Shown: positions 7,274-46,515 of the stretch, piece after piece
How positions within the stretch are numbered: the first letter of the stretch is position 1
Layout: each line of letters begins with the position of its first letter
NCBI GenBank assembly: GCA_030998015.1
Contig: JARWMV010000240.1
Location: forward strand, 682,001 to 746,000
Reading direction: 5' to 3'
From: Ceratorhiza oryzae-sativae
Lineage: Eukaryota; Basidiomycota; Agaricomycetes; Cantharellales; Ceratobasidiaceae
DNA: 64,000 nt
Notes under the pieces: generated by a model
Database searches by the model: none
Told to the model about the DNA's origin: nothing
Seen by the model: only the letters and a program-made list of their open reading frames with translations
Translations under genes and position numbers: made by a program

Positions 7274-7470
7274 TGTGTAAGAATAGGGGGATAGCAGGTG
7301 AAAGTGCTTAAGTGCTAGCAGGGTGTTGAACTGCTGAGGAGAGAGGGCTCTCCAAGGCTGTTTTTATAGGCCAGAGATGTCCTGCTTTTCTCTTTGGAAT
7401 TATAGGATTGTCCCTTAAGTTCACACAAGTGGAATTGGGGGACAATAGCATAAATTCCAGGCAGACTAAA

Positions 7471-29868: not shown

Positions 29869-30109
29869 ACTAGGGCTGAACTACATTTAGGATATCTGAG
29901 GGAACCTGACTATAGTAGTCTTGCTTGTTATACCTATAAATTGGTCAGTTCAAACTGTGAAAGATTAAGACCACCTTGAGTATTACATGATTGCATTGCA
30001 ACTACTTTGAGCCTTCTTACTCTAGTCTAAGAAGTATTAAGTACAATTAGTATATGAACATATCTACATTTGCTTAAGCTCTAGATATTCAAGTGTACCC
30101 TAACCTGTA
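29869..30109 (+). repeat. Fragment of an A-type LTR, inverted relative to element A
   Basis: This 240-bp piece is the reverse complement of the first 245 bp of 24561-25866 and ends CCTGTAACA, the true LTR terminus. Element B is inserted in it and the other part is missing. To its right the integrase sequence of E1 continues. Confidence 0.85.
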
Positions 30110-30236
30110 ACAAGCTCTTCTGCAGATGAGGATTCCCTGCACAGAATCAACTGGATTGTCTTGTACAAGCAATACACAACAGTCAAAATGCTGTCAAAGC
30201 CTCTTGATTTCAGCAGTTTGACTATGTGTCAGGGCT

Positions 30237-30749
30237 GACAACCTCAACAGCAACACCTTACACTGATGAGGCCAGGGTAGACCCAAAGGCTATGATGGCC
30301 AAGGGTCAGACTGCAACATCTAGACAGGACATGCAGTGAAGCAAAGGGGTGCATCAACACACAGAGGGTTGTCAGATGTGTACTTGGCCTTAAGAGGTCT
30401 TGGCAAGTACTATATGGCTTGGTGACCAACTCAGGTAGAAGGGATAGTTCAACAGGAGGTCAAGTTCTGAGGCCTAAGTCTCTCAGGCTCTCCCTTATAT
30501 GTTCAAGGATTGGGTTGTACATGTGAAATAGCAATTAGTGTAAAGTCATACAATATGTGAAGTGGTGCCATGTCAACAGAATATTGCATAATACATTAAC
30601 AATGCTCAACAACAACAAGGTCATGTGACTCACTCAATAATTCTATGCATATACCTGCATAAACAGGAATTGTCCAAAAAGTAGACAATAGAGATAAAAT
30701 AAAATTGTATAAATTCTGAACCAATTGGTGCTCATGGTCTAGGCCACAA
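30237..30749. mobile_element. 513-bp insertion in E1 integrase with a 7-bp flanking repeat
   Basis: GACTATG occurs on both sides (30230-30236 and 30750-30756), and joining across it restores the E2-like integrase sequence. The insert starts TGTCAGGGCTGAC and ends GGCCACAA; I see no good terminal inverted repeat and no coding capacity. A 7-8 bp duplication would fit a non-autonomous hAT-like element. Confidence 0.6.
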
Positions 30750-30986
30750 GACTATGAAATCATATCACATGTCTTGCCAGCCCCTGGCAAGAACAGGGAG
30801 AGGATGTAGAGCAAGGTGTCTCTCATGTCCCCTGCTCCTTTTGGAGATTTCACAAGAGTCTACATAACAATTGAGCTGGAACTTCATAGCCAGCCAGTAG
30901 TAGTGTCTTGACCACAGCTCTAGAGTGTGCACACATGCACAATGCCCAGCAGCTGGTGAATCATGGAAATGCACCAACAAGCTCTG

Positions 30987-31663
30987 TGTGATGAGCCACA
31001 ATCAAGGTCTTGTGGCTAACCATCATTTTTTCCTTTGTCTACTGCATTTTTCTTGTGCCTTGACCAGCTCCCCTTCATGAGTAAGAACCTCCACTTGCTT
31101 ACTGAGCCACTTCCAATTCTTAGTCCCTTGCTTACCAATCACTGCCATTCACCTTACTCAGCTTACTGACTTGCTGACTGATGGACATACTATTATTAGT
31201 AACTGGCTGACTGATCACTGCCATTCATTCTTACTCATCCTGCATGTATGCTTGGTCACTCCCTTGTTTAGCTTAGTTAAAAGCAAGGAGAGCAAGCTGG
31301 TCTACCCCAGCTTGCTCTACCTCATCAATTCCCCTCTAAAGCACTCTGTGTGGAGTTCAGTCCCTAGCTGACTTATTAGCTTAAGTAGTGGCTAGAAGGA
31401 CCTTAAGTCAAAGCCACATTGCAAGCCCCAGCAGTAAGCATCTGACTTAGCTGCTGTCCACAGTTGCTTACTCAGTGATGGGTGTCTGTCAGCCACAAGC
31501 AGATCAGTGCATACAGTGTCAAGCCACAAGACAGTAGACACATGTAAGGCATCCAGCCAACACAAGCCATGCCTCAGTAATAGACAGGAAATAGTCCAAA
31601 CACATTTTGGGCATGAGCCACTTGTAAAGCAAAGTCTGACAACTGCTTTCAGAGGTTGCAACA
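30987..31663. repeat. Solo LTR of an unassigned family in E1
   Basis: The 677-bp insert starts TGTGATGAGCC and ends GGTTGCAACA, and is flanked by CTCTG on both sides (30982-30986 and 31664-31668). TG...CA ends and a 5-bp duplication are what a solo LTR leaves. It does not match the other LTR families in the window. Confidence 0.7.
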
Positions 31664-32487
31664 CTCTGTTTGATGTCAGACTCATCAGCAACAACAATTG
31701 TTCCCTGTTAAAACAAGACTCCATCCCACATAGAATAGTCCTTGAACTGTGCTGCAATAAAATGGGCATATTCTGTGAACCAGAGATGGCAGAGAAAATC
31801 ACTTCTCAGTTAGGGTTGTCCAGCAGCATGTCCTTGATCAGGGAGATAAGTGGAGCTGACATTGCTGCTGCTTTGCCAACAAGGAGGTGTTCTGGAAGCA
31901 TTATCTGTGGCTTAGGCTCTGAAGGGATGCGCTCCAGCCACCATGAGAGCACATGTGGTTTCTCCAACAATGTACCTGGCTTGTGTTCAATGACAAAGTT
32001 GTAGGAGGCAAGGGTGAGGTGCCAGTGTGCATGTCATCTGTTAAAGCTCCTGGAAGTCTTCCAGTTCTCCAGATTCTTGTGATCAGTCAAGACAGTGACT
32101 GGGTGCTTTGTTCCTGCCAGGAAAATGTGCCAGTGTTCAAAGGAGCAAATTATAGCCAGTAGTTCCTTGTCATGGGTATCATAATTGAGCTCTGCAGGGG
32201 AGAAGCAGGCTGAAATGATGGCTACAGGGTGCATGCATCCATCAGCCTGTCACTGAGACAGCACAGCACCCATTGCATTGCCCAAAGCATCAGTTTCCAG
32301 ATGATAGGGTTCATACTCATTTGGGTGTGCAAGCACAGGTTCCAATGAAATTGCCAGTTTGATGCCATCAAATGCTGCTTGCTTCTCTTCTCCCCAATGC
32401 CATGGGATGTCCAGATCTGTAAGATCATGCAGTGGCCTTGCCAACCAGCTGAAATCTGCAATGCAGCAACAGTAGAAGTTTGCAAAT

Positions 32488-33045
32488 TGTTGTGACCCTC
32501 TGGATGCTTCCTTGCAAAGCACTTAAGTAGTGGCTGCATTGACAGTTTGGTGCTATGTGGTATGTATTGAGTGTTCTAGTTACAGTGTTTGCTATGGTCT
32601 ATGGTGGTTGACAAGATAAAGCAAGCTGAGGCATCCAGTCTTGCTTTATCCTTCTTATATATGCCTGTGGCTGCAGTGGCTGCAGATGTATTATCTAAGC
32701 ACAATCCGCAGTAGGTGCAGGTTATGTACAGTACTATGGGTTAGGTAATTGTTTGTCTTAAGTTTGTGCAGCTCCGAATCTTATAGAGCCACATGAGGTC
32801 CAAGGGGTAAGCACTGAGGTCATGTGATCCTGCCATAAGCACCAAGATCATGTGACAACTTGCTCCTCACTCCAAGTAACAAGGGAGAGAAATGCTGGAG
32901 TGAGTTCAGGGTAACCACTGTAAGCACTGGTTAAGTGCCAAGGTCACATGACCTTGTTTATGGCTTGTTCTGCTTAGGAAAAAAATGCCATAAATCCGTA
33001 AAAATATTTGGTTATTCTATTATGTCTGTTTGACAGGTAATAACA
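32488..33045 (-). repeat. 3' LTR of element D
   Basis: The ends are TGTTGTGACC and GGTAATAACA. It contains the inverted repeat GATAAAGCAAG (32615-32625) / CTTGCTTTATC (32640-32650) with a 14-nt loop, kept in the partner LTR. Confidence 0.92.
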
Positions 33046-33473
33046 TTATCCCCCCCTTTGGACATGTCTTGGGGGACCTCAAGACATGGTTTGGGTCCTT
33101 ATGCAAAAGGAATCTCATGCACCAAGGAGGTTAAGGGTGCTGGACTCAAACCAACAACCTTTTGGCTGATTCAGTGTTGTTCGATGAGGTCAGGCTGAGT
33201 CAGGCTAGACCCTTAACCTCTTTGTTACATGAGATTGTTTTTCTTTTCTTTGTTGTGGAGGTTATTTAGGGGTGAGGATTTGTCTGCTTCTCAGAATGCC
33301 CCAACTGTTTGGATGGGCATAGCAGAAGTTGTACAGTACAGTAAATTATTCTAAGGGAATACAAAGAATGGTTTTTCTCCTGTTTACACCCATTCTACAT
33401 TTCATGATACCCATAAGTCCCCTTCTTCCCCCTCTATGTCTGACCAACACTTCATGATTGCCAACCAGCTATT
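33046..33473. other. Element D: polypurine tract and 3' untranslated part
   Basis: The purine-rich tract of D lies at 33046-33060 (read on the minus strand). No coding sequence is recognised in the remaining 400 bp. Confidence 0.5.
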
Positions 33474-34450
33474 TCACAGAATAACTGTCAGCTGTACCTT
33501 CATCAATTTCATGTGCACATACCTGCCTGTGAAGTCCACCTTGTACTGGCTCAGGGCCTTGAGCAAGTACTTCCTGTTTGACTGGACCATGTTGTCCAGG
33601 ATCCAAATGTCAGCATCTTCTGACAAGTTGCCCACATTCCACACATTGCAAATCTGGCTGTGGCAGCCCTTGGATTGTGCATACATTGTTTTCCCTGTTC
33701 CAGTTTCTCCTTCTATCACCAGGATGCGATGGCACACCCCTCTTCCCCTCTTCTCAACCTCCTTGGCAAACCATCTGTCTGCTTGGTCAATGTGCTCCCA
33801 GTCTTCTAGGACCTCTAACTCCACAGGGATTGCAGGCATGCAACCCTGGTCTTCCTTGTATGTGTACTCAGCATATGCTTGTACCAAGTTCTGCATCATC
33901 ACCATCTGGAGGGGGCAGAGGTGCTTGAATGCCTGGTAGTACTCCTGTTTCATCGCCAAGGCAACAATCTCCATCCCATCCTCCAAGTCTGCCTCCATCC
34001 TTGACCGTTTTCCACCCTTTCCCTTCACCAAGATCTCCTCCAACCTTTCCAAGGTCAGGTCCCCCACCATCAAATCCTCTATCTCCTCGCCATTAGCTCC
34101 AATGTCCTTCCAGAGATAGTTGAAGGGGTCCCTTTCTGGGTTGCCTCCTGGCCTGTCCTTGAGGTCTTTGGGCCATATGTTGGGGTGTTGCCCCTCGAAG
34201 TCCCAGAACCCCACATTCTGGGTGTTCCACCCACCCTTCTGTTCCTGACTGATGGAGAGGGCGTGGACATGCAGGGGCTGGGTTGGGTTGTAGTTCAGCT
34301 CCTCCAGGTTGTGCCATTCAACCATGGCTAAGGTTGCCCAGTGATTGGGCTGGTGGTGGCAGAACACCTCATATTGGGTGGCAAGCCCACTTGAGGGCTG
34401 ATTGCGTAGCTTCAACCAGGTCAGCAGCACTGCCCTGGTCTGGACATGGA
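33474..34450 (-). pseudogene. Rep-like protein (HUH endonuclease plus P-loop helicase) of CRESS-DNA-virus type
   Basis: Reading down from about 34450: motif I-like VLLTW; motif II with the HUH pair (LHVHAL, about 54 residues in); a GRS-like segment (DFEGQHPNI); motif III YLWK, with the Tyr that nicks DNA and its Lys; then Walker A GETGTGKT (about residue 241) and Walker B ADIWILDN. The order and spacing match Rep of geminivirus- and genomovirus-like replicons, which nick the plus strand at an origin hairpin and unwind it for rolling-circle replication. A TGA lies just upstream of motif I, and a further minus-strand frame (34680-34471) may be an N-terminal extension in another frame, so an intact start is not visible. 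The C-terminus ends soon after the helicase motifs. I judge it an old captured or endogenised copy, probably non-functional. Confidence 0.8.
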
Positions 34451-35099
34451 ATCAGGGGGCCTGTGCAGTTTCAGTTGGCTCTTTGGACCTGTGATCTGTC
34501 AGCATAAGCTGTGTAGAAGCAGGTGAGGGGGCTTGGCTTGATTCCAAGGGTGCCAGCAATGGTGATGCCAACCTCTGCCCTGTGCTTGATTCGTTTGGCT
34601 GGAGTGTTCCCACGTTCAAGCCATCTTTGCTTAGCATTGTTGGTGTTTTTTGAGGTAGATGTGTCTTGTGGGGAGGGCATGAAATGATAGCCCCTTTTAC
34701 CCCCAAAGGTGTCCCCTAGATATACCCTTTCTGGTTGTTGTGATCATGTGGTTTCCTGATGTAGGCTTGTGCTGGTTATGATGCATCTCCAAGGGGTGCC
34801 CTTCCTGTGTTCCCCTGTGTCGGCCTTATTCTTTGCTATGCTTGGGGCCTCTGCTCCTCCACTTTGGTTGGTGCCCCCTCTCTGACCCCTCTGGTAGTTA
34901 GGGGATAGCGTATATTCATGTGACTAGGCTAGGTCATGTGATTCCTGTGCTTTGTTGTTTGTTTTCTGGCAGATGGTCACATGTCTGTTGGTGTCACCTG
35001 ACCAGACTTTGTTTTGATGTTTGTGCAAGTTATTGTGTTGCACCATGATTTTTTAATGTTTGTGGTTTTGTTGTTTTCCTTCCTCATCCTGTCTTTACT
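34451..35099. other. Region between the divergent Rep-like gene and small ORF
   Basis: The 400 bp centred on 34900 separates two divergently oriented coding regions. A short hairpin CCCCT-N9-AGGGG lies at 34886-34904. In CRESS replicons the origin hairpin sits between divergent genes; this one has only a 5-bp stem and no clear nonanucleotide, so it is a weak candidate. Confidence 0.3.
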
Positions 35100-35198
35100 A
35101 TGCATGTTATTTCCCTTAACTACAATCCCCTTGACTGCACCTGCTGGTCTCTCCCTGAGGGGGAGTACTGTGCCTACTGTGATGCCATGTGCAATGCC

Positions 35199-35573
35199 TG
35201 TCACAAACTGACATGCATATATCCACTCTATAATATTTTCTCGATTTACTACATTTTACAAGATCATCTTCAAACATACTTGCCTGTTATGGTATATCTG
35301 TGTCATGTGACTCAGGGAATGTTCCAGACCGGTAACCAAGATGTATTTCAACTCTGATGTGAAATTCTGCAGTTCCGCAGTCACTTCTACTGCTTCTATC
35401 TCTTATCAGTCATGACTCACTGTACGGACTTGTTTGTTATGATGTGGCTTGTACTATGTATATAAACCAGGTCAAGTTCGCAGAGGGCTCCTCAAGAACT
35501 TGACCTCTTGTCAAATACAAGTTCTTTTCCTTTCTTACTATTTTTCTTGTTGCCTGACTTGTCGTTGTCGACA
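35199..35573 (+). repeat. 5' LTR of element C
   Basis: 375 bp, TGTCACAAAC to GTTGTCGACA. A TATA box TATATAAA is at 35459-35466. Confidence 0.95.
35459..35506 (+). promoter_or_regulatory. Core promoter and self-primer segment of element C
   Basis: TATATAAA (35459-35466) places the likely RNA start near 35490. TCAAGAACTTGACCT at 35492-35506 is the exact complement of the primer-binding site at 35576-35590, so the RNA 5' end can fold onto it. Confidence 0.7.
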
Positions 35574-35590
35574 TCAGGTCAAGTTCTTGA
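35574..35590 (+). promoter_or_regulatory. Primer-binding site of element C (self-priming type)
   Basis: It starts two bases after the LTR, AGGTCAAGTTCTTGA. It lacks the TGG expected for a tRNA site but is complementary over 15 nt to the LTR segment just after the TATA box, as in Tf1 of fission yeast. Confidence 0.7.
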
Positions 35591-35879
35591 CAATCGTAAG
35601 TCTCAGTGTCGTCTGGGATACTTCTGGAACGCCATTGGTGTCGTCTTGAGATAACTCCCCGTTGCCTTCCCCAATCCTACTCCACCTATCCACAGCCACA
35701 AGATATCATTGCCCTATACGTGCCTCTGTGAAACCTTGCATAGCCAGGTCCCTCACACGTTGTAACAAGCTTTGGTTCTCTAATCTCTTTCGTCAACAAG
35801 AGGTGGGGTCGCTCATTGCCCTTAAGTAGCTGAGCAACGGAGGTCACCTTCCTATTCCAATAGACTCGGGAAAGGGTCT

Positions 35880-36835
35880 ATTTTTCCTTTTATCTTGCTC
35901 TTGCTCAAGTACGTCTCTGACGGAACGCACGGCCCTCAAGTGGCACAACCTTTTACAGAAGACTAGCACTGCCGTCAGTGTGGGTGGGTCGGACACCTGT
36001 CGATCCACTGCTTCACCCTTAACTCAGTCCAAAGTATCCTTGAAGAAGCTGGGCACATCAATTTCAACTGAGTAGTAATTATCAAAGTCCGCCCCCAAAG
36101 AGTCGGACACGCCCAACAAGCCTTTGTCACCGAGCCAGGTGCCCCTGAGTGCAAAGTTTGCCATCGGGCAAATGGAGCCACCTTCCCAGCGCGCTGCCCT
36201 TATTGTCCTAAGAGGGACAAATTCCTTTATTACTACACCATCCCCCACAACCAGCTATAAGCTGGAGAACCTTGGTCAACAGCTTCTTCGTCACCTGTTA
36301 AACACTATCAAAAATTTCCAAGACAGGTACTGTTATTACTGGAATAAGTACGAAGAAACCTGTGAAAAACTTCACGAAGCAGAGGCCTGTTGCGCATACT
36401 TAACCAAATGTTTGCGCAAACACCAGGAGGACTACCTATCCCTCCTCCAAGACCATCTCAGACTAGAAGCTATAGTCCAAGAAACAGTTGAACCCCACAA
36501 GTACGCCTTCCCCGTCTTCTCAATGCCATCAGACCTCCCTCACCCCACCTTTCTAAGTGGCACAGGCTTGCCAATTCAGGAAGAAACACTCCTTCCAGCA
36601 GCCCAAATCAGTTTTCCCCAAGGAAGCACTCCTTTGGGACCAAACTAAACTAAAGAGGGTGGAGTGCCCCTATCGTTGCCAAGACACCAAAAGTTGGGAC
36701 TTGGACGATACTTGGTTAAGGTTCGTGGGAATCAGAAACTTTGAAATTTACAGACTTGTGTGGGGAACAGAAATCCTCTACTATCAAAACAATTCCCAAT
36801 TCCCTGTACTTCCTTATCGTCTCCGTCGTCTTTAG
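35880..36835 (+). pseudogene. ORF upstream of gag in element C (homologue of 28189-29094)
   Basis: One frame carries a CX2CX4HX4C knuckle (CRQCGWVGHLSIHC) and a second Cys cluster (CKVCHRANGATFPARCPYC) but has a TAG before and a TGA between them. The frame 36124-36648 encodes the helical part (RYCYYWNKYEETCEKLHEAE, LRKHQEDYLSLLQ). The frame 36557-36835 encodes DTKSWDLDDTWLRFVGIRNF. Protein-level similarity to element B in three different frames argues for former coding function. Family unknown. Confidence 0.5.
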
Positions 36836-36858
36836 AATTTTACCAAGTCTTCTCTGAA

Positions 36859-38245
36859 ATGGCGTCACAACCCTCTACCCCGGCTGGGCAAATATGTCCA
36901 ATGGGGAAAAAGTCATCTATATGCTCCAGTCAATGGACGAACTACAAGAACGAACCAACAACCTCCAAAATGACATTGGAGACATAGAACATAACAACAA
37001 GACATACATGGATACACTCGAAGCAAGGCTCACCACCAACCAGACAAAAATAGATGCCGATGTGGCCAGACTGGCCACCAGCGTTAATAACCTTGTGGGC
37101 ATGTTAGCAATACTTCAAACATCGATCACACATGTTGAAGCCCAAATAAACACCTCATCAGGTGGCTCAGGTGCCACCCAAGCACAACCAATCACTGGTA
37201 CAACCCAACCACAGCCAACAGCTACTATTACCACTGGCGGATCAGCCGTAAAAGTCAAGATGGTGGCTCCCCAAAAGTTCATGGCACAAAGCATGAAGAA
37301 GCCATCTCATTCAGGATCGCATGCGTGCGATACATCAATACCAATATGAGTGGGCACTCAGCTGACCAAGTGGTCGCATTTATCACATCCTATCTTGAAG
37401 GATCAGCAGCCAAATGGGTCAACTCATATGAAGAATTTGAAATTTTAAACCCTGGAACTGCGATCCCCTGGCTTCACAATGCCAGTTTGTTCTGGCAAGA
37501 ATTCACTACCTGTTATGGGGATTTGAACTGCACTGAAAATAACCACGACAAGTGGTGGAAACTGAAACAATCCAAGATGGTTCAGGATTACCTCACCCTA
37601 TTCAACCTATATTCCACAGGTCTCAACTACAACGATGCCGCCACGCGTGATCAGTTCTATGATGGTCTATCGTCAGATGTAACAGATAGCATGGTGGCCC
37701 AAAACTATGACCCCCGCACCAAAACCTTTGCCCAACTCACTCAGCGAGCCCTAGAAATTGACCGCCACCTCATCTCGTTTGGTAGCAAATGAACGTCTCA
37801 TGGGAGCAACAAGCCCAGCAGCAACGCCTTGTCCAGTAGACTGACCAATAACCCCCAAAGCACTCCCCAAAAGGAGAAATTCAAAAGTGGGGAACGGATA
37901 TATAAGATTAAGGACAGGAGAGCTGTAAAAGGTCAGATTGTGGCCATTGGGCCCAATGCAAAGGGTTTCACAGTTCCAACTGTCTGCTATGATGGCAGCA
38001 ATGCCAATGTACAAGAATCCTTCAAGGACATAAAGAAGGATAATCATCCACCAGCGGCCCCCAAGGCAAGTGACCCAGACGCAATGGATTTGGATAGCGC
38101 AGGAAAAGGAAAGGGGACAAACACCTGCTATAACTGTGGAGGACGGGGTCATATCGCAGCCAAATGCCCCTCAGCTAAGATGTCAGGATACAAGGCAGTG
38201 GTTGAGGATGTAGAAACAACCGACGAAGAGTTGGTAAAAGAATGA
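36859..38245 (+). pseudogene. gag of element C
   Basis: The start is MASQPSTPAG at 36859. One-base losses near 36890 and 37278 and a TGA at 37790-37792 break it. Capsid-core motifs (FITSYLEGSAAKWVNSYEEF) and an intact zinc knuckle CYNCGGRGHIAAKCP are present. The stop TGA at 38243-38245 overlaps the pol ATG. Confidence 0.9.
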
Positions 38246-41200
38246 GCTCAAACCATGCCAGGGGGGCGGTCTTGGGTGCTATGTTACAAAATGCGCATAA
38301 TGAAAATAAAAATATGGAAATGGAATGTATGTCGTTAGGAAACCAATCACAACTACAGTTTTTCTTTCATGCATTCCCCCTGCGCATAACCCCCGAATGC
38401 AAATCTGCATATAACATGAAAAAATTTAACAGATGGGCCATGATTGACTCAGGGGCCACGTCAGTATTTATACATGAAGATTTGGTTAAACAATACCGTA
38501 TTCCTACCGTCGTCCTAAAAACACCCAAGAAACTGAGGGTAATCAATGGAAGGGAGATAGACTCTGGGTCTGTGACCCATTACTGCACCTTTGAGTTGTG
38601 TATTCAAGAGCACTGAGAGATCCTCAGTGCCTACATTGTGAATGTTGGCAAAAATGATCTAGTTCTGGGCATGTCATGGCTCAAATTCCATAACCCAGAC
38701 ATTGATTGGGAGGGGAAAGATATGAAGTTCAACTTGCCAATATGCTTGAAACACTGCATTACCAAACCCCTACATGTGCAAGCAAACAAACCCAAGGAGC
38801 TCCAGTTGGACTCTTTAGATTCCCTCCCAACCAAATACAGGGAGTTCAAGAAAATATTTGCTGAAGAAGACGACGTCCAGCCGTTACCACCCCATAGGAA
38901 GTGGGATATGGAAATAGATTTAAAACCAGATGCCAAGCCAAGGCATGGCCCCATATATAGTGTGGGTGTCAAGGAAGATGCAGAACTGCACAAAACCTTG
39001 GAGCGCCAACTGAAAGCAGGGCATATCAGACCCTCAAGGTCACCAATGGCATCTCCAGTCATATTTGTCAAAAAGAAGAATGGGAAGTTGCGCATGTGCA
39101 TCGACTACCAGCGACTAAATGAAATGACAGTCTCTAATGTGTACCCACTCCCACACATCAATGATATTGTGGAGACACTGTGTGGGGCAAAGATATTCAC
39201 CAAGTTTGATCTAAAGTGGGGCTTCAACCTCATATGAATTCGGGAAGGGGACAAATGGAAAGCAGCTTTTAAGACCAAATATGGGCTGTACAAGCCCTTA
39301 GTCATGCAATTTGGTCAAAAGAACGCACCAGGAACCTTCATGGCCATGATCCGGGAAGAGTTCCAAGACATCGAGGGCATTTATGTGGTAATCTATATGG
39401 ATGACATATTAGTATTCTCCAAAAACCAGGAAGAACATGATGAACATGTCAAGGAAGTCTTATGTTGCCTTCAAAAAGCTGGCCTATATTGTGCCCTGGA
39501 GAAATGTGTTTTCGATGTCACTGAAGTTGATTACCTGGGAATAGTAGTGACTCCCCAGGGAATTAAAGTAGACCCAGCCAAGGTCAAAAAGGCTGTTGAA
39601 TGGCCCACCCCTACCAACCCAACCGAAGTCCTGGAAGGGTTGGGGTTTGCAAATTGGTTGAGGCACTTCATAAAAGACTTTTCGAAAATTACAAGATGTC
39701 TTTATGAACTTGTCAAGAAGGATGTAAAATGGGAATGGACAGAAGAAAGGGATCAGGCATGGAATCTGCTGAAGCAAAAATTAAAAGAAGCCCCCCTCCT
39801 AATTCAGCCAGAACCCAACAAACCATTCATTTTGGAAGCTGACGCCTCAGGCTATGCCACAGGCACTGTATTATTGCAATATGGAGAGGACGGAATGCTC
39901 CACCCAATCTCCTATTACTCCAAGGCAATGGTCCCAGCAGAAAGAAATTACGATATCTACAACAAAGAAATGCTGGCAATTATAAAGGCCCTCAAACACT
40001 GGTGTCATTTGCTAGAAGGGGCCGAACACCTGGTAAACATTGTTTGTGACCACAAGAACTTGGAGTATTGGAAGATGAATCAGCCACTGAACAGCTGGGT
40101 CACACAGTGGCATGAGTTCTTATCCAGGTTCGAATTCAAGATTCTATATATTGAAGGAGCGAAGAATGGCTGGGCAGACATACTCTCTAGGCTGTCAAGA
40201 CACATCCCTAAAGAGGGGGGTGAGAGCCAAGCTCTGCTTGCGCAAAACCAATTTTTGGAGCTGAAATCACTATGCCTACAAGCAATCACGCCAGACAATG
40301 ACCTAGAACAACTCATTAGGGATGCTATCCCAGGGGATGAACACCTATCAAAAGTCCTAAAAGCCCTAGATGACAATGAAAAGGTCAAAGATTGGGAATG
40401 GGACGAAGGACTCTTACGACACAAGGGCAGAATCTATGTCCCCAATAACAAAGAACTTTGCAAACTGGTCATCGAAAGCCGTCACAACAACCCAGCAGCA
40501 GGACACCCAGGACAGTTCAGAACATATGAATTGTTAAATTGCAAATACACGTGGTTGTCAATGAAAAAATCAGTCAACGAATATGTCACACACTGCGAGT
40601 CATGCATCAGGAACAAGCACAGCAACCAAGTTCCCCCAGGGCTCCTAAACCCAATACCCGCACCAGAGAAACCTTGGGAGGAAATTACTTATGATCTGAT
40701 CACCGGGCTACCCCTGTCAGAGGGGTTTGATGCCATATTTACAGTTGTCGACTGCCTGACAAAAATGGTCCACTTTATTCCATGTCAATTGGAGGCCAGC
40801 GCTATGGATTGCACCAACCTGTTCCTAACATATGTATGGAAACTCCATGGGTTACCATGGAAAACAATCTCAGACTGTGGCCCCAACTTTGCATCCAAGT
40901 TCTTAAGGCACTTATACAAACAACTGGATATAAAACCCTCCTACTCCACAGCATACCACCCTCAGCAGATGGCCAGTCTGAACGGGCCAACCAAGTAGTG
41001 GAAGGGTATATCAGACACTATGTATCAGACAGACAAGACGACTGGGTCTTGCTCCTACCATTAGCTGAATTTGCCTACAATAATGGTGTCAACGCCTCAA
41101 CTGGCAAATCACCATTCTTTGCAAACTACGGTTTCCACCCAAGGCTAGCGGTTGGGAATAGGGAGGAACCAGAACTCCCTTTAGTGGACAACCATGCAGA

Positions 41201-41771
41201 ATGGCTCCAAAAGGGCCATGACGAACTTAAGGCAGCCCTGGAAATAGCAAACCAGAGGATCAAGGAATACTACAACCAGAAGCATCGGACCCCTGAAGCT
41301 ATTAAGGTTGGAGACAAAGTCTGGCTTGATACCAAAAACATACGGACACAGCAGGCCTCCAGGAAACTGGCCCACAAAAGAGTTGGACCATTCAAGGTGG
41401 TAGCACAACATGGCACACATGCCTACAAACTGGACCTACCGATAACCATGAAAATACACCCAGTGTTTCATGTCTCACTCCTCACCAAATATAAGGATGA
41501 CCCCTATGGCCATCAGGTTCCCCCACCACCACCTGTGGTAACTCCTGAAGGGGAAGAAGAATTCGAAGTGGAACAGATCATAAAGTCACAATACAACAAA
41601 AGATCTAATGTCTTTGAATACTATGTCAAGTGGCTTGGCTACAACGAGCGACAATGGCTAACATACGATGACCTGGTGAATGCACCAGAACTCATTGCTG
41701 ACTATGTCAAGTCACACCCAAAGGCACCCCATGACCCCTGTGCCTTGAAGGGGGGAAGTGTCACAAACTGA
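38242..41771 (+). pseudogene. pol of element C: protease, RT, RNase H, integrase, chromodomain
   Basis: Protease: WAMIDSGATSVFIHED. RT: DIVETLCGAKIFTKFDLKWG, VMQFGQKNAPGTF and the YMDD box in VIYMDDILVFS. RNase H: LEADASGYATGTVL, YNKEMLAIIKAL, VCDHKNLEYW. Integrase: HHCC finger (HPGQFRTYE...CESCIRN), Asp in EITYDLITGLP, ISDCGPNFASKF and DGQSERANQVVE. Chromodomain: FEVEQIIKSQYNKRSN, then YYVKWLGYNERQWL. TGA codons stand at 38614-38616 and 39235-39237, both where CGA is expected. A one-base loss near 40965 shifts the frame just before the integrase Glu. The protein would be about 1,175 residues if intact. Confidence 0.93.
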
Positions 41772-42133
41772 CATGCATATATCCACTCTATAATATTTTC
41801 TTGATTTACTACATTTTACAAGATCATCTTCAAACATACTTGCCTTTTATGGTATATCTGTGTCATGTGACTCAGGGAATGTTCCAGACTGGTAACCAAG
41901 ATGTATTTCAACTCTGATGTGAAATTCCGCAGTTCCGCAGTCGCTTCTACTGCTTCTATCTCTTATCAGTCATGACTCACTGTACAGACTTGTTTGTTAT
42001 GATGTGGCTTGTACTATGTATATAAACCAGGTCAAGTTCGCAGAGGGCTCCTCAAGAACTTGACCTCTCATCGAATACAAGTTCTTTTCCTTTCTTACTA
42101 TTTTTCTTGTCGCCTGACTTGTCGTCGTCAACA
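41759..42133 (+). repeat. 3' LTR of element C
   Basis: 375 bp, TGTCACAAAC to GTCGTCAACA, preceded by the purine tract and followed by ATGCC. Confidence 0.95.
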
Positions 42134-42615
42134 ATGCCTCCCTTGAAGACTTCTATGGAGGTGTCAGGGATTGGTTCTTCTGTGAGGTGCCAGGTATGTG
42201 TGCTTGTTCTTCATTGTTCTCATGTTGCAAACTTGTTCTGTAGAAGAGCGCATCCTCCTTGATGGTCAGGCCCATGAGGCCACCCTTGAGTGTGTCTGGG
42301 TGCTTGTTGATCAGGACTACAAGTCCTTTGAGGAGCGGTCTCACCAGGCCACTCTTGCCAAATTTTTTGAGGAGGGCTCTGCTCCCTTGTTTGATGAGGC
42401 TTTGCCCTTTGCAGTGTCTGGTTCTGGGTGTTTCCAGAACTACATGGCTGACTTCCCAGGGGGGGAGGCCCCTTGGCTGTGGCCCACTACCTGGTCAGTT
42501 GTTCAGACCAATAAGAAGGATAAAAAAGGCAAGAAGCCCTATACCCGGCCCCTCAAGGGCAAACATAAATAGAGAGTAAAAAATGTATTAAGTTTGATGT
42601 GTAAAAATAAAACTC

Positions 42616-44251
42616 TTATACATTTGAGAAAATTTCATGGGAGGCAAAGTGGTCATATGGGGGCTGGTTCCAACAGTGGCACCTCCTCCAGAGCTTTGAC
42701 AAGCTTGTTTTCCCACTGGCCCCAGCCCTGTTTGGCTTCCTTACCACATTGTTAGTTTGGGTATTCCCCTGTTTGCTGCTGATCCCTGAAGGCTTGTTCC
42801 CCCCTTGTTTGTACTTTGCTGGTGCCCAGGTTGAATTTGATGAGTTGCTGGTCCTTGCATTCATTTTCTGGTTTGCAAACTGCATGTTGTCCATTTTGCA
42901 GGCAAAGTCAATTAATTGATCTAAGGTATATGATGGACCTTCAGCCTCATTTGCCAGTACTTCAATCCTTAAGATCTCTTGTTGTACTTCAGGTTTTAAC
43001 CCTTCCCTGAATTGGTCCTTGAGGGCTTCCTGGTTCCAGTCTACCTCTTGGATCAGGATCTGGAATTGGGTAGCATAATCCAATGCACTCTTGGTTTGTG
43101 TTAATTTCCTTAGTTTCCAGATGGTCTTTTCCTTTATGACTGGGTTGTTAAAAGCATCCAGGAATCCCTTCCTGAAATCCTTCCAGGATGCAAGGATACC
43201 TGTGCATTCACCTGCTAGTAGTTTCCAGCGGTAAGGTTGTGCCCAGTTTGCTGCTTCCCTGTCCTCCATGTTCATTAACACAGCAGATATCTTTTTTGGG
43301 TTGTCAAAAGCTGATTTGTCATAGTCAGTGAAGAAAAGTTCCATGCTGATTATGAAGTTCTCTGCTTCCTTCCCTTTTTTTCCCATTAAATTTGCTGGGT
43401 CTCCCTAGTCGCACCTCCTTAGGAGTGTGGTTTGCAGCAAGGGTAGGTTGGTTTGCTTGGGATGGAGGTTCTGTTCAGGGTCTTATTGTGGACTCAGCCT
43501 GGAAGGTTCTTCCCAGAAAGGGTGTTCATACTGGGGAGGCTGAGGGGGATTGTGAGGGGCTTCCTATGACCACCCTAGTTCTTCCCCAGGTCTCTTCTGT
43601 CCTTTCCCTTGGCCTTCCTGCTTCAGTTATTTTCTGGAGCTCATTTCCTAGATCAGTTACCCATTGTTCTAGTGCAGTCAGGATCTCCCCAGTGTTTTCA
43701 GTTTTCTTCTCTAAGCTTTCAAGCTTTTGCTCTTGCATTCCCAGTACCTGGTTTATTTCCATGGAGATGTCCTTTAATTCTTTTATCAGGTTCCCCATTT
43801 CTGCTTTTAGGTTGTCCTGGTTCTTTGCCACATAGAGGACATTTTTGTTGGATGTTTCCATTGACCTTACCATCCAGTCCACATTTCCTTCTTGCTGGGT
43901 TAGTGATATTTGACACTGATTTATACCTGTGATTGCCTTTTCTAGTTCCCTATGGTTATTGTCTCTAAGTTCCTTGAGCCCTGCCCTGATGGTGGTGGCA
44001 ATGGTGTGAATAGGGTTGGCAGTGGTTATGGTTCCAGGACCTGGCTGGGGTTGTGTCCTTGCCTCTTCTGCCAAGGCCATGCCTTGTTCGTATATGGTTT
44101 GGGTCATATCTTCTACCTCATCCCTCTCTGGATTTGAGATATCTTCTGGGTCTGGATTTATCAGGTGAATTGGCGGTTGAGGGCTGCGGAGCAGTATTCC
44201 CCCTATTTGCCCTCCCAGGATGGGGGCCCAAGTGGGGTTAGGCTGAGCCAC
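42616..44251 (-). pseudogene. gag of element D
   Basis: It starts at MAQPNPTWAP (44251). The N-terminal half is helical (NTGEILTALEQWVTDLGNEL). Two TGA codons follow (about 43524 and 43480), then an A7 run in GGGAAAAAAAGGG (near 43380) where one base must be skipped to enter the capsid core (ELFFTDYDKSAFDNPKKISA, WKDFRKGFLDAFNNPVIKEK, GLKPEVQQEILRIEV). It ends at 42616 without a zinc knuckle or protease. Core motifs are those of Ty3-type Gag. Confidence 0.85.
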
Positions 44252-44521
44252 TGGTCATGGGTTTTGTGGCAACCCCCCCGGCATTCCTTGGAGGGTCTTG
44301 TCTGGGTTACCTTCAGCCTCTGGGGGAGTAACTGGTTTAGGTGATTGTGGTCTACTATTTGCCACTCTGCTTTGAGATCAAGTTTGTGGTCTCTGTGACA
44401 TAGTTTCTTTGTGTTCCCTTATGTATCACAGGAGTTAGCTGGTTTCTCATGTACTCAGCCCTTAGTATCTGTGTAGTATACTTATGTTTGCCACTAGTTA
44501 AGTTAAGAGCTTGATTTATAA

Positions 44522-45076
44522 TGTTGTGACCCTCTGGATGCTTCCTTGCAAAGCACTTAAGTAGTGGCTGCATTGACAGTTTGGTGCTATGCAGTACATA
44601 TTGAGTGTTCTAGTTACAGTGTTTGCTATGGTCTATGGTGGTTGACAAGATAAAGCAAGCTAAGGCATCCAGTCTTGCTTTATCCTGCATATATATGCCT
44701 GTGGCTGCAGTGGCTGTGGATGTATTATCTAAGCACAATCTGCAGTAGGTGCAGGTTATGTACAGTACTATGGGTTAGGTAATTGTTGTCTTAAGTTTGT
44801 GCAGCTCTGAATCTTATAGAGCTGCATGAGGTCTGAGGGGTAAGCGCTGAGGTCATGTGATCCTGCCATAAGTGCCAAGATCACATGACAACTTGCTCCT
44901 TGCTCCAAGTAACAAGGGAGAGAAATGCTGGAGCAAGTTCAGGGTAACCACTGTAAGTGCTGGTTAAGCGCTGAGGTCACATGACCTTGTTTATGGCTTG
45001 TTCCACTTAAGAAAAATGCCATAAATCCGTAAAAATATTTGGTTATTCTGTTATGTCCGTTTGACAGGTCATAACA
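44522..45076 (-). repeat. 5' LTR of element D
   Basis: 555 bp, similar to 32488-33045. The sequence following it on the minus strand (TATAAATCAAGC) matches GATAAAGCAAGC, complement of an LTR segment after the TATATATGC box, at 10 of 12 bases, a weak hint of self-priming. Confidence 0.92.
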
Positions 45077-45106
45077 CAAATCCACAGAAACTCTGCACAT
45101 GTTTCA

Positions 45107-46515
45107 CATATCATGCAGGAAATTTGTGGGTAACCTGCACCTGCAGCTGGTAACCAGCGCCCCAGGGGCTATACCTGCACCTGCACCTGCACCTGCACCC
45201 ACACCTGCACCCACAGTGGAAAAGCTGGTATACCTGCAGTAACCTGCATTTTATCTGCATTCCCACCATTGCAGGTATACCCACTGCAGAAAGTCACCAC
45301 ATTGTGGTATTGTGGATACCATTAAATATGGTAAAATCACAGCTTTCAACCAATGTATTTAATCCCATGTACAAAAAATTGTAGCAGGAGTTATAAGCCA
45401 AACAACATTTGAATGAATCCATTAAAAGGGGGAGTGTTTTTGCAAAGTTGTCACAAATGTTAGCTCCAGTGCTCAAAAATGCGGAAAAATCAGGCGATCT
45501 CAATGTTGTATATCATTTTGCTGGGAAAAATCAGATCAATGAGATTGCAGCAAATCTATGGTGAAAGAAAATTGCTCACATGAGTGCAGCTCCTATTTCA
45601 TTGTAAAGCAGGCATATCCATGCAATTCTAGTACTGCAAATCGACTCAGAGTACCTGGAAACCCCTAGAACAAGTAGTATTATATTCATAGGCATCTTAC
45701 ATACAAGTGAACTCACCTCCCCTGCTCACAACCTTAGTAGGTTACATGTTCCCTTGGGTCTACACCAGCAGACCCACCCAATGGAACATACAGGGAGTGA
45801 GTGTTGAAGGACACATGACTAAGGTAAAAAGCTCCCCTGAGTTCACCTAAACCATCAGAATTGCTTGACACCCCCTCAGAAATGCTGTAGAGGGGGATTT
45901 GACAAAGATCTCACCACTCAGGGGTATGTTTCCCTTGTTTCAACCTCTAAATGTTGTCCAATGAAGCTGAAACTTTGTAGGTGACCTATGATAACCTGTT
46001 CACGCCCAGATAGCATGTGGGAACAGTGTTTGCACACTGAATTTCACTAGCACTTGTGGCGCTTTCAGGGGTTCTGCCCGCTATAATCTCCTGATATCTT
46101 GCACTACATGCACTCTAAAGCTTCAGGAGTATTCTCACTGAACTCAGGGAGCTGAGGCATATTGAGCAATATATATATGTTGTGTATTGTACAAGTTTTG
46201 AAGATCTCAATCAACCTGCACTTTAGGCTCATTATTTACCTTCAGTGTTTGTTGTGAATTGCCCTGTAGAAAATTTTGTTACTATGATTGTGTCACCCTG
46301 ATTCTTCTTTGCAGCCATGTTGCTGATTTCCTCTCTCTTTGTCACTGTTCTTATTGTTTTGACTGTGTGGGTATCTGCAGGTATGACAGTGCTTATTTGT
46401 GGGTTACTGTAGGTTTCCCACCCAGTTACCTGCATGGTTTTGGCCATACCTGCACCCTGCAGTGGGTATTTGTTGGCATTTATACCTACAGAATGCCAGT
46501 ATCCCAGCTGCCAGT
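45107..46515. mobile_element. Possible non-autonomous DNA element with CCTGCA-rich ends
   Basis: E1 sequence stops near 45107 and E-family LTR sequence begins near 46518. Both ends of the interval are rich in TACCTGCA and its complement, including an ACCTGC hexamer run at about 45168-45200; the middle has no coding sequence I recognise. Similar GTATACCTGCA words occur in the subterminal region of the hAT element. Exact ends and a target duplication are not visible. Confidence 0.35.

Follow-up and report, generated by a model that had tools for sequence, protein, structure and literature searches.

Element D lies on the minus strand (45076 → 32488) of a 64,000-nucleotide stretch of the Ceratorhiza oryzae-sativae genome (assembly GCA_030998015.1, contig JARWMV010000240.1, positions 682,001 to 746,000; hereafter the window). 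It is a long terminal repeat (LTR) retroelement that carries, besides a Ty3-type gag, an open reading frame (ORF) resembling the replication initiator (Rep) genes of circular, Rep-encoding single-stranded DNA (CRESS) viruses. Read in the gag sense, the window copy consists of a 5′ LTR, a leader, gag, a deletion junction, a small ORF on the opposite strand, an intergenic stretch, the Rep-like ORF, a polypurine tract, and a 3′ LTR (Table 1). The two LTRs differ at 35 of 555 aligned bases, with transitions making up 32 of the 35 differences, and gag matches the Pfam families Retrotrans_gag (E = 7.4e-11) and Ty3_capsid (E = 1.4e-07). A preliminary description, based on the window alone, delimited the element by its two LTRs, matching CAAAT duplications, polypurine tract, and Ty3 gag, and recognized a gene with HUH, YxxK, and Walker A/B motifs in Rep order as well as a divergent small gene. 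All of these parts were found where they had been placed, and the small ORF runs opposite to gag. The Rep-like ORF encodes motif I (LTW), HUH, YxxK, Walker A, and Walker B in order, with motif C just behind a stop codon in this copy.

Nearly complete copies elsewhere in the genome (L037 and L038) span ∼10 kb and have the order LTR–gag–pol–post-pol ORF–small divergent ORF–Rep–LTR. The gag of L037 contains a Ty3 capsid, and its pol is ordered protease (PR)–reverse transcriptase (RT)–RNase H–integrase (IN), with a stop breaking the integrase frame. The C-terminus of this integrase matches the chromodomain PF00385 at E = 6.2e-05 (23.3 bits, below the cut-off of 25.1), and PF00385 is also listed in the close pol homologs P0050–P0053. 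Relative to L037, the window copy is missing ∼4.3 kb, and the word CTGTTTGG occurs at both edges of the gap. Homology of 39 of 39 other listed gag matches begins at query base 113 or beyond, and that of 39 of 39 other listed small-ORF matches stops by query base 656, ahead of the junction. The missing PR-RT-IN is a private 4.3-kb deletion in the window copy, not the design of the element; a pol-less design is ruled out by the deletion junction and by the pol-bearing copies elsewhere. Because the junction is private among the listed gag and small-ORF places, the arrangement first described as Rep ‘where pol should be’ is the state of one damaged copy. Element D does lack its own PR, RT, and IN between gag and the 3′ LTR, as the preliminary description says, and a nested element with its own gag-pol lies in the gap. 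Its proposals that Rep replaces pol and that the element spreads in trans, as a normal mode, are not supported, since nearly complete copies carry pol plus Rep and thus their own gag-pol.

The family is abundant and its parts keep a fixed order. Segments 89–93% identical to the window Rep (subfamily A) occur at no fewer than 40 places, the window copy included, and a second subfamily (B), with 78–79% DNA identity over the Rep segment, occupies at least 40 further places, none of them in common with the listed A places, so that the genome holds at least 80 Rep copies. The gag, small-ORF, and L037 post-pol segments are each present at at least 40 places, own copy included, all of these counts being floors. 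Fifty-four same-strand, multi-part clusters of listed places (gaps up to 18 kb) show no other part order, allowing for two clusters that join neighboring elements. The Rep segment directly meets the LTR at an identical position in 20 of 20 fetched Rep loci, window included (in L011, two bases at the boundary did not align), and the post-pol ORF and adjoining pol end lie next to the small ORF in all seven other fetched small-ORF loci (L030–L036). In L099, a listed B-type Rep copy is followed by the small ORF, pol, gag, and a B-type LTR. The B-type LTR is closer than the A-type at the gag side of six of six and at the Rep side of three of three B elements, by margins of ∼2–14 identity points. 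Rep is present in 39 of 40 listed post-pol loci, a tally made up of 18 loci with Rep on the expected side, C190, 16 scored from 600-bp stretches at the expected distance (placed by distance, not strand), and four more, two of them with partial Rep. The sole exception (L098, at C234:138952) ends inside the small ORF.

Exact 5-bp target duplications, read by eye, differ at three sites, being CAAAT in the window, TGAAC in C20, and TGTTG in C243; C55 and C251 each match at four of the five bases. Because the insertion sites differ while Rep co-occurs with gag-pol, the composite of gag-pol and Rep has moved many times as a unit. Whether it did so was held at the outset to be unanswerable from one copy, and the 20 shared LTR–Rep boundaries and three differing target duplications settle the question. 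It had also been suggested that gag-pol elements of this type found elsewhere without Rep, together with a gag–Rep junction confined to this locus, would point to a chance insertion plus deletion. Such gag-pol elements do exist elsewhere, yet they carry Rep; the direct gag/small-ORF junction is found in the window only, among the matches listed.

Between the two subfamilies, Rep is under strong purifying selection. The ratio of nonsynonymous to synonymous substitution rates (dN/dS) between A and B copies is 0.10–0.14 over all usable codons and 0.04–0.06 without CpG codons, in 12 nonindependent pairs (6 of the 22 A copies, each against two B copies). Wrong-frame readings of the same alignment give 1.7–3.6 (three A copies versus one B, CpG-free codons). 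The value between the two B copies is 0.42 and falls to 0.20 once CpG codons are excluded. All 24 aligned copies retain the histidine pair of HUH, the tyrosine and lysine of YxxK, the Walker A lysine, and the motif C asparagine, and 21 of them retain the Walker B aspartate.

Searches recovered 49 Rep homologs, 35 from named Ceratobasidium and 14 from sources without an organism name. Open homologs in Ceratobasidium are 427–429 amino acids (aa) long, the best of them (from AG-Ba) sharing 73% identity over the full query length. The nearest pol sequences, the Tf2-type polyproteins P0050–P0053 of Ceratobasidium sp. AG-Ba, share 69–71% identity. This similar divergence of Rep and pol fits joint descent, as judged from separate proteins whose pol names carry no locus tags.

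The Rep proteins of geminiviruses and genomoviruses carry motifs I, HUH, YxxK, Walker A, Walker B, and C in that order. All six occur in order and with near-constant spacing in 11 of the 49 homologs; the other 38, among them truncated and odd gene models, miss the whole pattern. Motifs I, HUH, YxxK, and Walker A in succession were found in none of 50,000 shuffles of ten homologs, in none of 120 pol proteins, and in just one of 69 ORFs of at least 150 aa from the window and three loci, that one being Rep. With E values allowed up to 1, Gemini_AL1_M has colinear matches in nine of the 22 members. The best of these (P0011, E = 0.001) stays below the cut-off at 19.5 bits versus 24, and covers residues 182–278, starting ∼47 residues behind YxxK and reaching into Walker A. 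The C. oryzae-sativae genome itself has two sub-threshold Gemini_AL1_M matches, neither of them at listed Rep places. An IMG/VR scan sensitive to close relatives only detected no viral relative of the Rep alignment, and two Walker A patterns hit 0 and 1 contig there. A plasmid search returned three short matches at E 9, and PDB sequence searches found no Rep. NCBIfam gave weak matches in one of three proteins, the best being an Orc1/Cdc6 P-loop (0.0066, P0011). Judged by its motif architecture, the protein appears to be of Rep type, and since no Pfam cut-off is reached and the structure models lend no support, we do not file it in Geminiviridae or Genomoviridae. Its motifs and the sub-threshold Pfam match suggest viral ancestry. 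The initial idea of a replicon joined to a retroelement thus stands as far as a Rep-type gene sits in an LTR element and moved with it as a unit.

The reading that we consider likely is that element D is a dead, pol-deleted copy within a multi-copy Ty3/chromovirus-type family that gained a geminivirus/genomovirus-type Rep, along with a small divergent gene, at the 3′ ‘env’ position, and whose Rep would act on element DNA. That the family is a retroelement with a selected Rep-like gene seems to us very probable, and Rep probably does a job for the element. As a protein of the HUH nickase and P-loop helicase type, it would be made during the element's cycle and would act in the nucleus on unintegrated element DNA by nicking or unwinding, and it might amplify LTR circles. 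The conservation of residues in both enzymatic domains suggests that nicking and joining, as well as ATP-driven unwinding, matter. We advance the element's own unintegrated nuclear DNA as the substrate tentatively, as a conjecture from conserved residues. A ‘retro-replicon’, in which unintegrated circular DNA is multiplied after reverse transcription by a Rep from a circular single-stranded DNA virus, so that RNA-templated and rolling-circle copying would meet in one element, is the boldest form of this proposal and in our judgment an unlikely one.

Several observations weigh against this reading. A stop interrupts the Rep frame in 19 of 22 A copies. Among the three B copies read, the frame is open, at 429 codons, in one, where methionine takes the place of the Walker A threonine. 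CpG columns vary among 22 Rep copies at nearly every site (49/49, 49/50, and 57/57 by codon position), mostly as C/T or A/G, and because nearly all of them vary, we infer that the stops fit CpG-directed decay after insertion. Within subfamily A, common non-CpG changes favor third positions (p = 0.001), a codon-phase test given little weight because a noncoding control deviates too (p = 0.0076); the test shows no signal in the N-terminal extension of Rep and none of significance in gag. The subfamily division is blurred at the LTRs, some of those in B elements being only slightly nearer to the B than to the A type. C26 and C190 look mosaic, with a B-type Rep and Rep-side LTR and a far-side LTR 92% identical to the A type. 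On the protein side, every Pfam Rep domain stays below its cut-off (the best Gemini_AL1 value is 0.23, in one of 22 members), and Gemini_AL1 is without a match in this genome, as are the controls. Equally weak P-loop NTPase matches occur in more members (nSTAND3 in 19 of 22, AAA_22 in 12 of 22), and the open Rep frame of C26 has no family match at all. AlphaFold2 models are poor (pLDDT 34 for full-length Rep, 49 for the HUH part); Foldseek with the low-confidence model returned 548 matches with E values of 10 or less, none of which reached 0.001, and these were not used. Finally, a CRESS origin nonanucleotide resembling TANTATTAC was absent from six regions searched on both strands with three patterns, and because this known origin word is missing, a copied viral mechanism is less likely.

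Two side observations belong with these copies. The CpG-column variation in the Rep region (L009–L028, L037, L038) may reflect repeat-directed mutation or methylation decay. C26 and C190 (L052, L055) have a common right flank over ∼50 bases, and one may be a segmental duplicate.

Plant geminivirus Rep loosens transcriptional silencing or cell-cycle control. The main rival explanation holds that Rep is kept here for comparable manipulation of the host, which we regard as somewhat unlikely. Relief from silencing would help an element so heavily struck at CpG, and a protein kept for this purpose would agree with the lack of an origin nonanucleotide in the regions searched. Against this rival, the HUH histidine pair, the YxxK tyrosine and lysine, and most of the helicase residues are kept, and a protein that only binds could do without them. 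There is also a precedent, in the accessible part of one report, for a mycoviral Rep that by itself alters its fungal host (PMC12774355).

It is improbable that the ORF encodes some other P-loop protein that converged on these motifs. The absence of any family above cut-off, the similarly weak nSTAND3, AAA_22, and Orc1/Cdc6 matches, and the low-confidence models with no fold match at E 0.001 or better would all suit such a protein; against it stand the complete, ordered, near-constantly spaced motif series in 11 homologs and the colinear Gemini_AL1_M matches in nine members. A Rep replicon that landed in one element and hitch-hiked without a role is a still less credible account. Broken frames in most A copies, the missing origin word, and the lack of a viral counterpart (in a scan sensitive to close relatives only) are what a passenger would leave. 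Such a passenger should show an A/B dN/dS near 1, far above the 0.04–0.14 found, and presumably more losses than the one among 40 listed post-pol loci; open Rep frames in Ceratobasidium also speak against it. A passenger role is unlikely because of the low dN/dS and the co-occurrence in 39 of 40 listed loci. A chance meeting of a Rep sequence and a pol deletion in the window only, for which the privacy of that deletion among listed places is the one argument, is almost certainly wrong, given Rep at the same LTR-adjoining spot in 19 of 19 other fetched Rep loci and pol in L037, L038, and the seven other small-ORF loci (L030–L036).

The idea that a transposon with terminal repeats brought in the Rep module is unsupported. 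The search for terminal inverted repeats (TIRs) found just short AT-rich inverted pairs of 13–15 nt near the module ends, and a transposase is absent among the six non-Rep ORFs of L037 and L011, in which gag and pol domains alone pass the Pfam cut-off.

Table 1. Parts of element D and its surroundings in the window.
Feature	Position	Strand	Remarks
Target site duplication CAAAT, left	32483..32487		Direct reading; same as 45077-45081
3′ LTR of element D, TG...CA ends	32488..33045	-	At least 40 places genome-wide
Polypurine tract, G-rich, adjoining 3′ LTR	33046..33059	-	AAAGGGGGGGATAA in gag sense
Rep-like gene, conserved 366-codon frame	33354..34451	-	Three in-frame stops in window copy (row L009)
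Longest open Rep piece in window copy	33474-34451	-	ORF from GTG = 33474-34430
Stretch separating Rep gene from divergent small gene	34600..35193		∼590-650 bp in most relatives
Younger nested Ty3-type LTR element, own gag-pol	35199..42133	+	Target duplication ATGCC, 35194-35198 / 42134-42138
Small divergent gene ‘SM’, ORF 42198-42572	42134..42572	+	At least 40 places; start and splicing uncertain
Deletion junction, 8-bp microhomology CTGTTTGG	42728..42735		Post-pol ORF and pol lost, 4.3 kb relative to L037
gag, capsid part Ty3_capsid / Retrotrans_gag	42728..44251	-	gag ORF as read in window = 42616-44251
Leader from 5′ LTR to gag	44252..44521	-	∼270 bp in relatives
5′ LTR of element D	44522..45076	-	Paired with 32488-33045
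Target site duplication CAAAT, right	45077..45081		Direct reading

The post-pol ORF is similar to the C-terminal region of longer relatives, with 24–32% identity where E ≤0.001 (in a set of 169 proteins, the best E being 1.5e-6). Considered as a possible capsid gene of a CRESS-type replicon, the small divergent ORF shows neither a Pfam family that passes the cut-off nor a hit in protein databases, and two of its frames are open in some copies. A faint likeness to it in residues 369–452 of a Ceratobasidium Rep gene model (P0029; E = 0.002 in the 49-protein set) is not relied on. The intergenic stretch between it and Rep is a putative bidirectional promoter. In L038 this stretch contains a 61-bp tandem duplication (7344–7465), which fits spacing classes of ∼590 and ∼650 bp.

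The nested element, whose LTRs show 12 differences in 375 bases, is inserted at what is likely to be the start codon of the small ORF. Its family and the Rep family have repeatedly inserted into one another (window 35199–42133; L064, L092, L094, L100, and the C243 copy). The LTRs of both Rep subfamilies contain an internal repeat of ∼100–116 bp whose number varies among copies (L018, L024, L086, L088, L092, and others). Between the Rep stop and the polypurine tract lie an imperfect inverted pair of 34–42 nt (33105–33138 / 33209–33242) and a 12-nt hairpin (33063–33088); L037 and L038 have the long pair too, and L038 also the hairpin. Rfam gave no matches in four loci searched, the inverted-repeat region included, and a tRNA search of window 30000–46000 found none. 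Remains of an RT/RNase H-like ORF, read by eye at 32222–32539 on the minus strand, extend into the left end of element D; because of this overlap, the element was apparently inserted in or beside an older retroelement.

Captures of env and of some enzyme genes by retroelements are on record, and Rep genes have been described both from DNA transposons and among endogenous viral sequences. A selected replication initiator inside a gag-pol LTR element would unite two replication strategies in one mobile element and would give a concrete route for the spread of single-stranded DNA virus genes through fungal genomes. It would also be a testable case for asking whether a retroelement can replicate its DNA stage.

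We found no report of a Rep inside an LTR retrotransposon in the open-licence literature as far as its text was accessible, most subscription papers and bioRxiv lying outside the search. With the Rep of Geminiviridae and Genomoviridae (PF00799, PF08283) the protein described here shares the motif order and a weak colinear Gemini_AL1_M match; it differs in that no curated domain at cut-off, no circular virus genome, and no nonanucleotide was found. Among fungi, the available portion of one study describes geminivirus-like Rep genes in fungal genomes and a Rep-bearing TIR transposon of Tuber melanosporum, with 42 Rep genes or remnants reported (Liu et al. 2011, PMC3198968). In that transposon, as in the element D family, a Rep of geminivirus/SsHADV-1 type has been amplified inside a fungal transposable element. 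The Tuber carrier, as described there, is a DNA element that is bounded by 37-bp terminal inverted repeats and has transposase ORFs, whereas the carrier here is an LTR retrotransposon with gag-pol. The bdelloid LTR retrotransposons Vesta, Juno, and TelKA have captured third ORFs (Rodriguez et al. 2017, PMC5408684, as far as its text is available) and likewise hold a foreign extra gene between pol and the 3′ LTR. In the accessible text, their captured genes encode env, a GDSL esterase, or a DEDDy exonuclease, and neither ‘Rep’ nor ‘HUH’ occurs. Orchid Ty3/Gypsy elements, in the part of the account at hand (PMC9289625), carry an m6A demethylase domain in a plant host, unlike the Rep here; like the element D family, they are Ty3 elements that acquired an extra enzyme domain.

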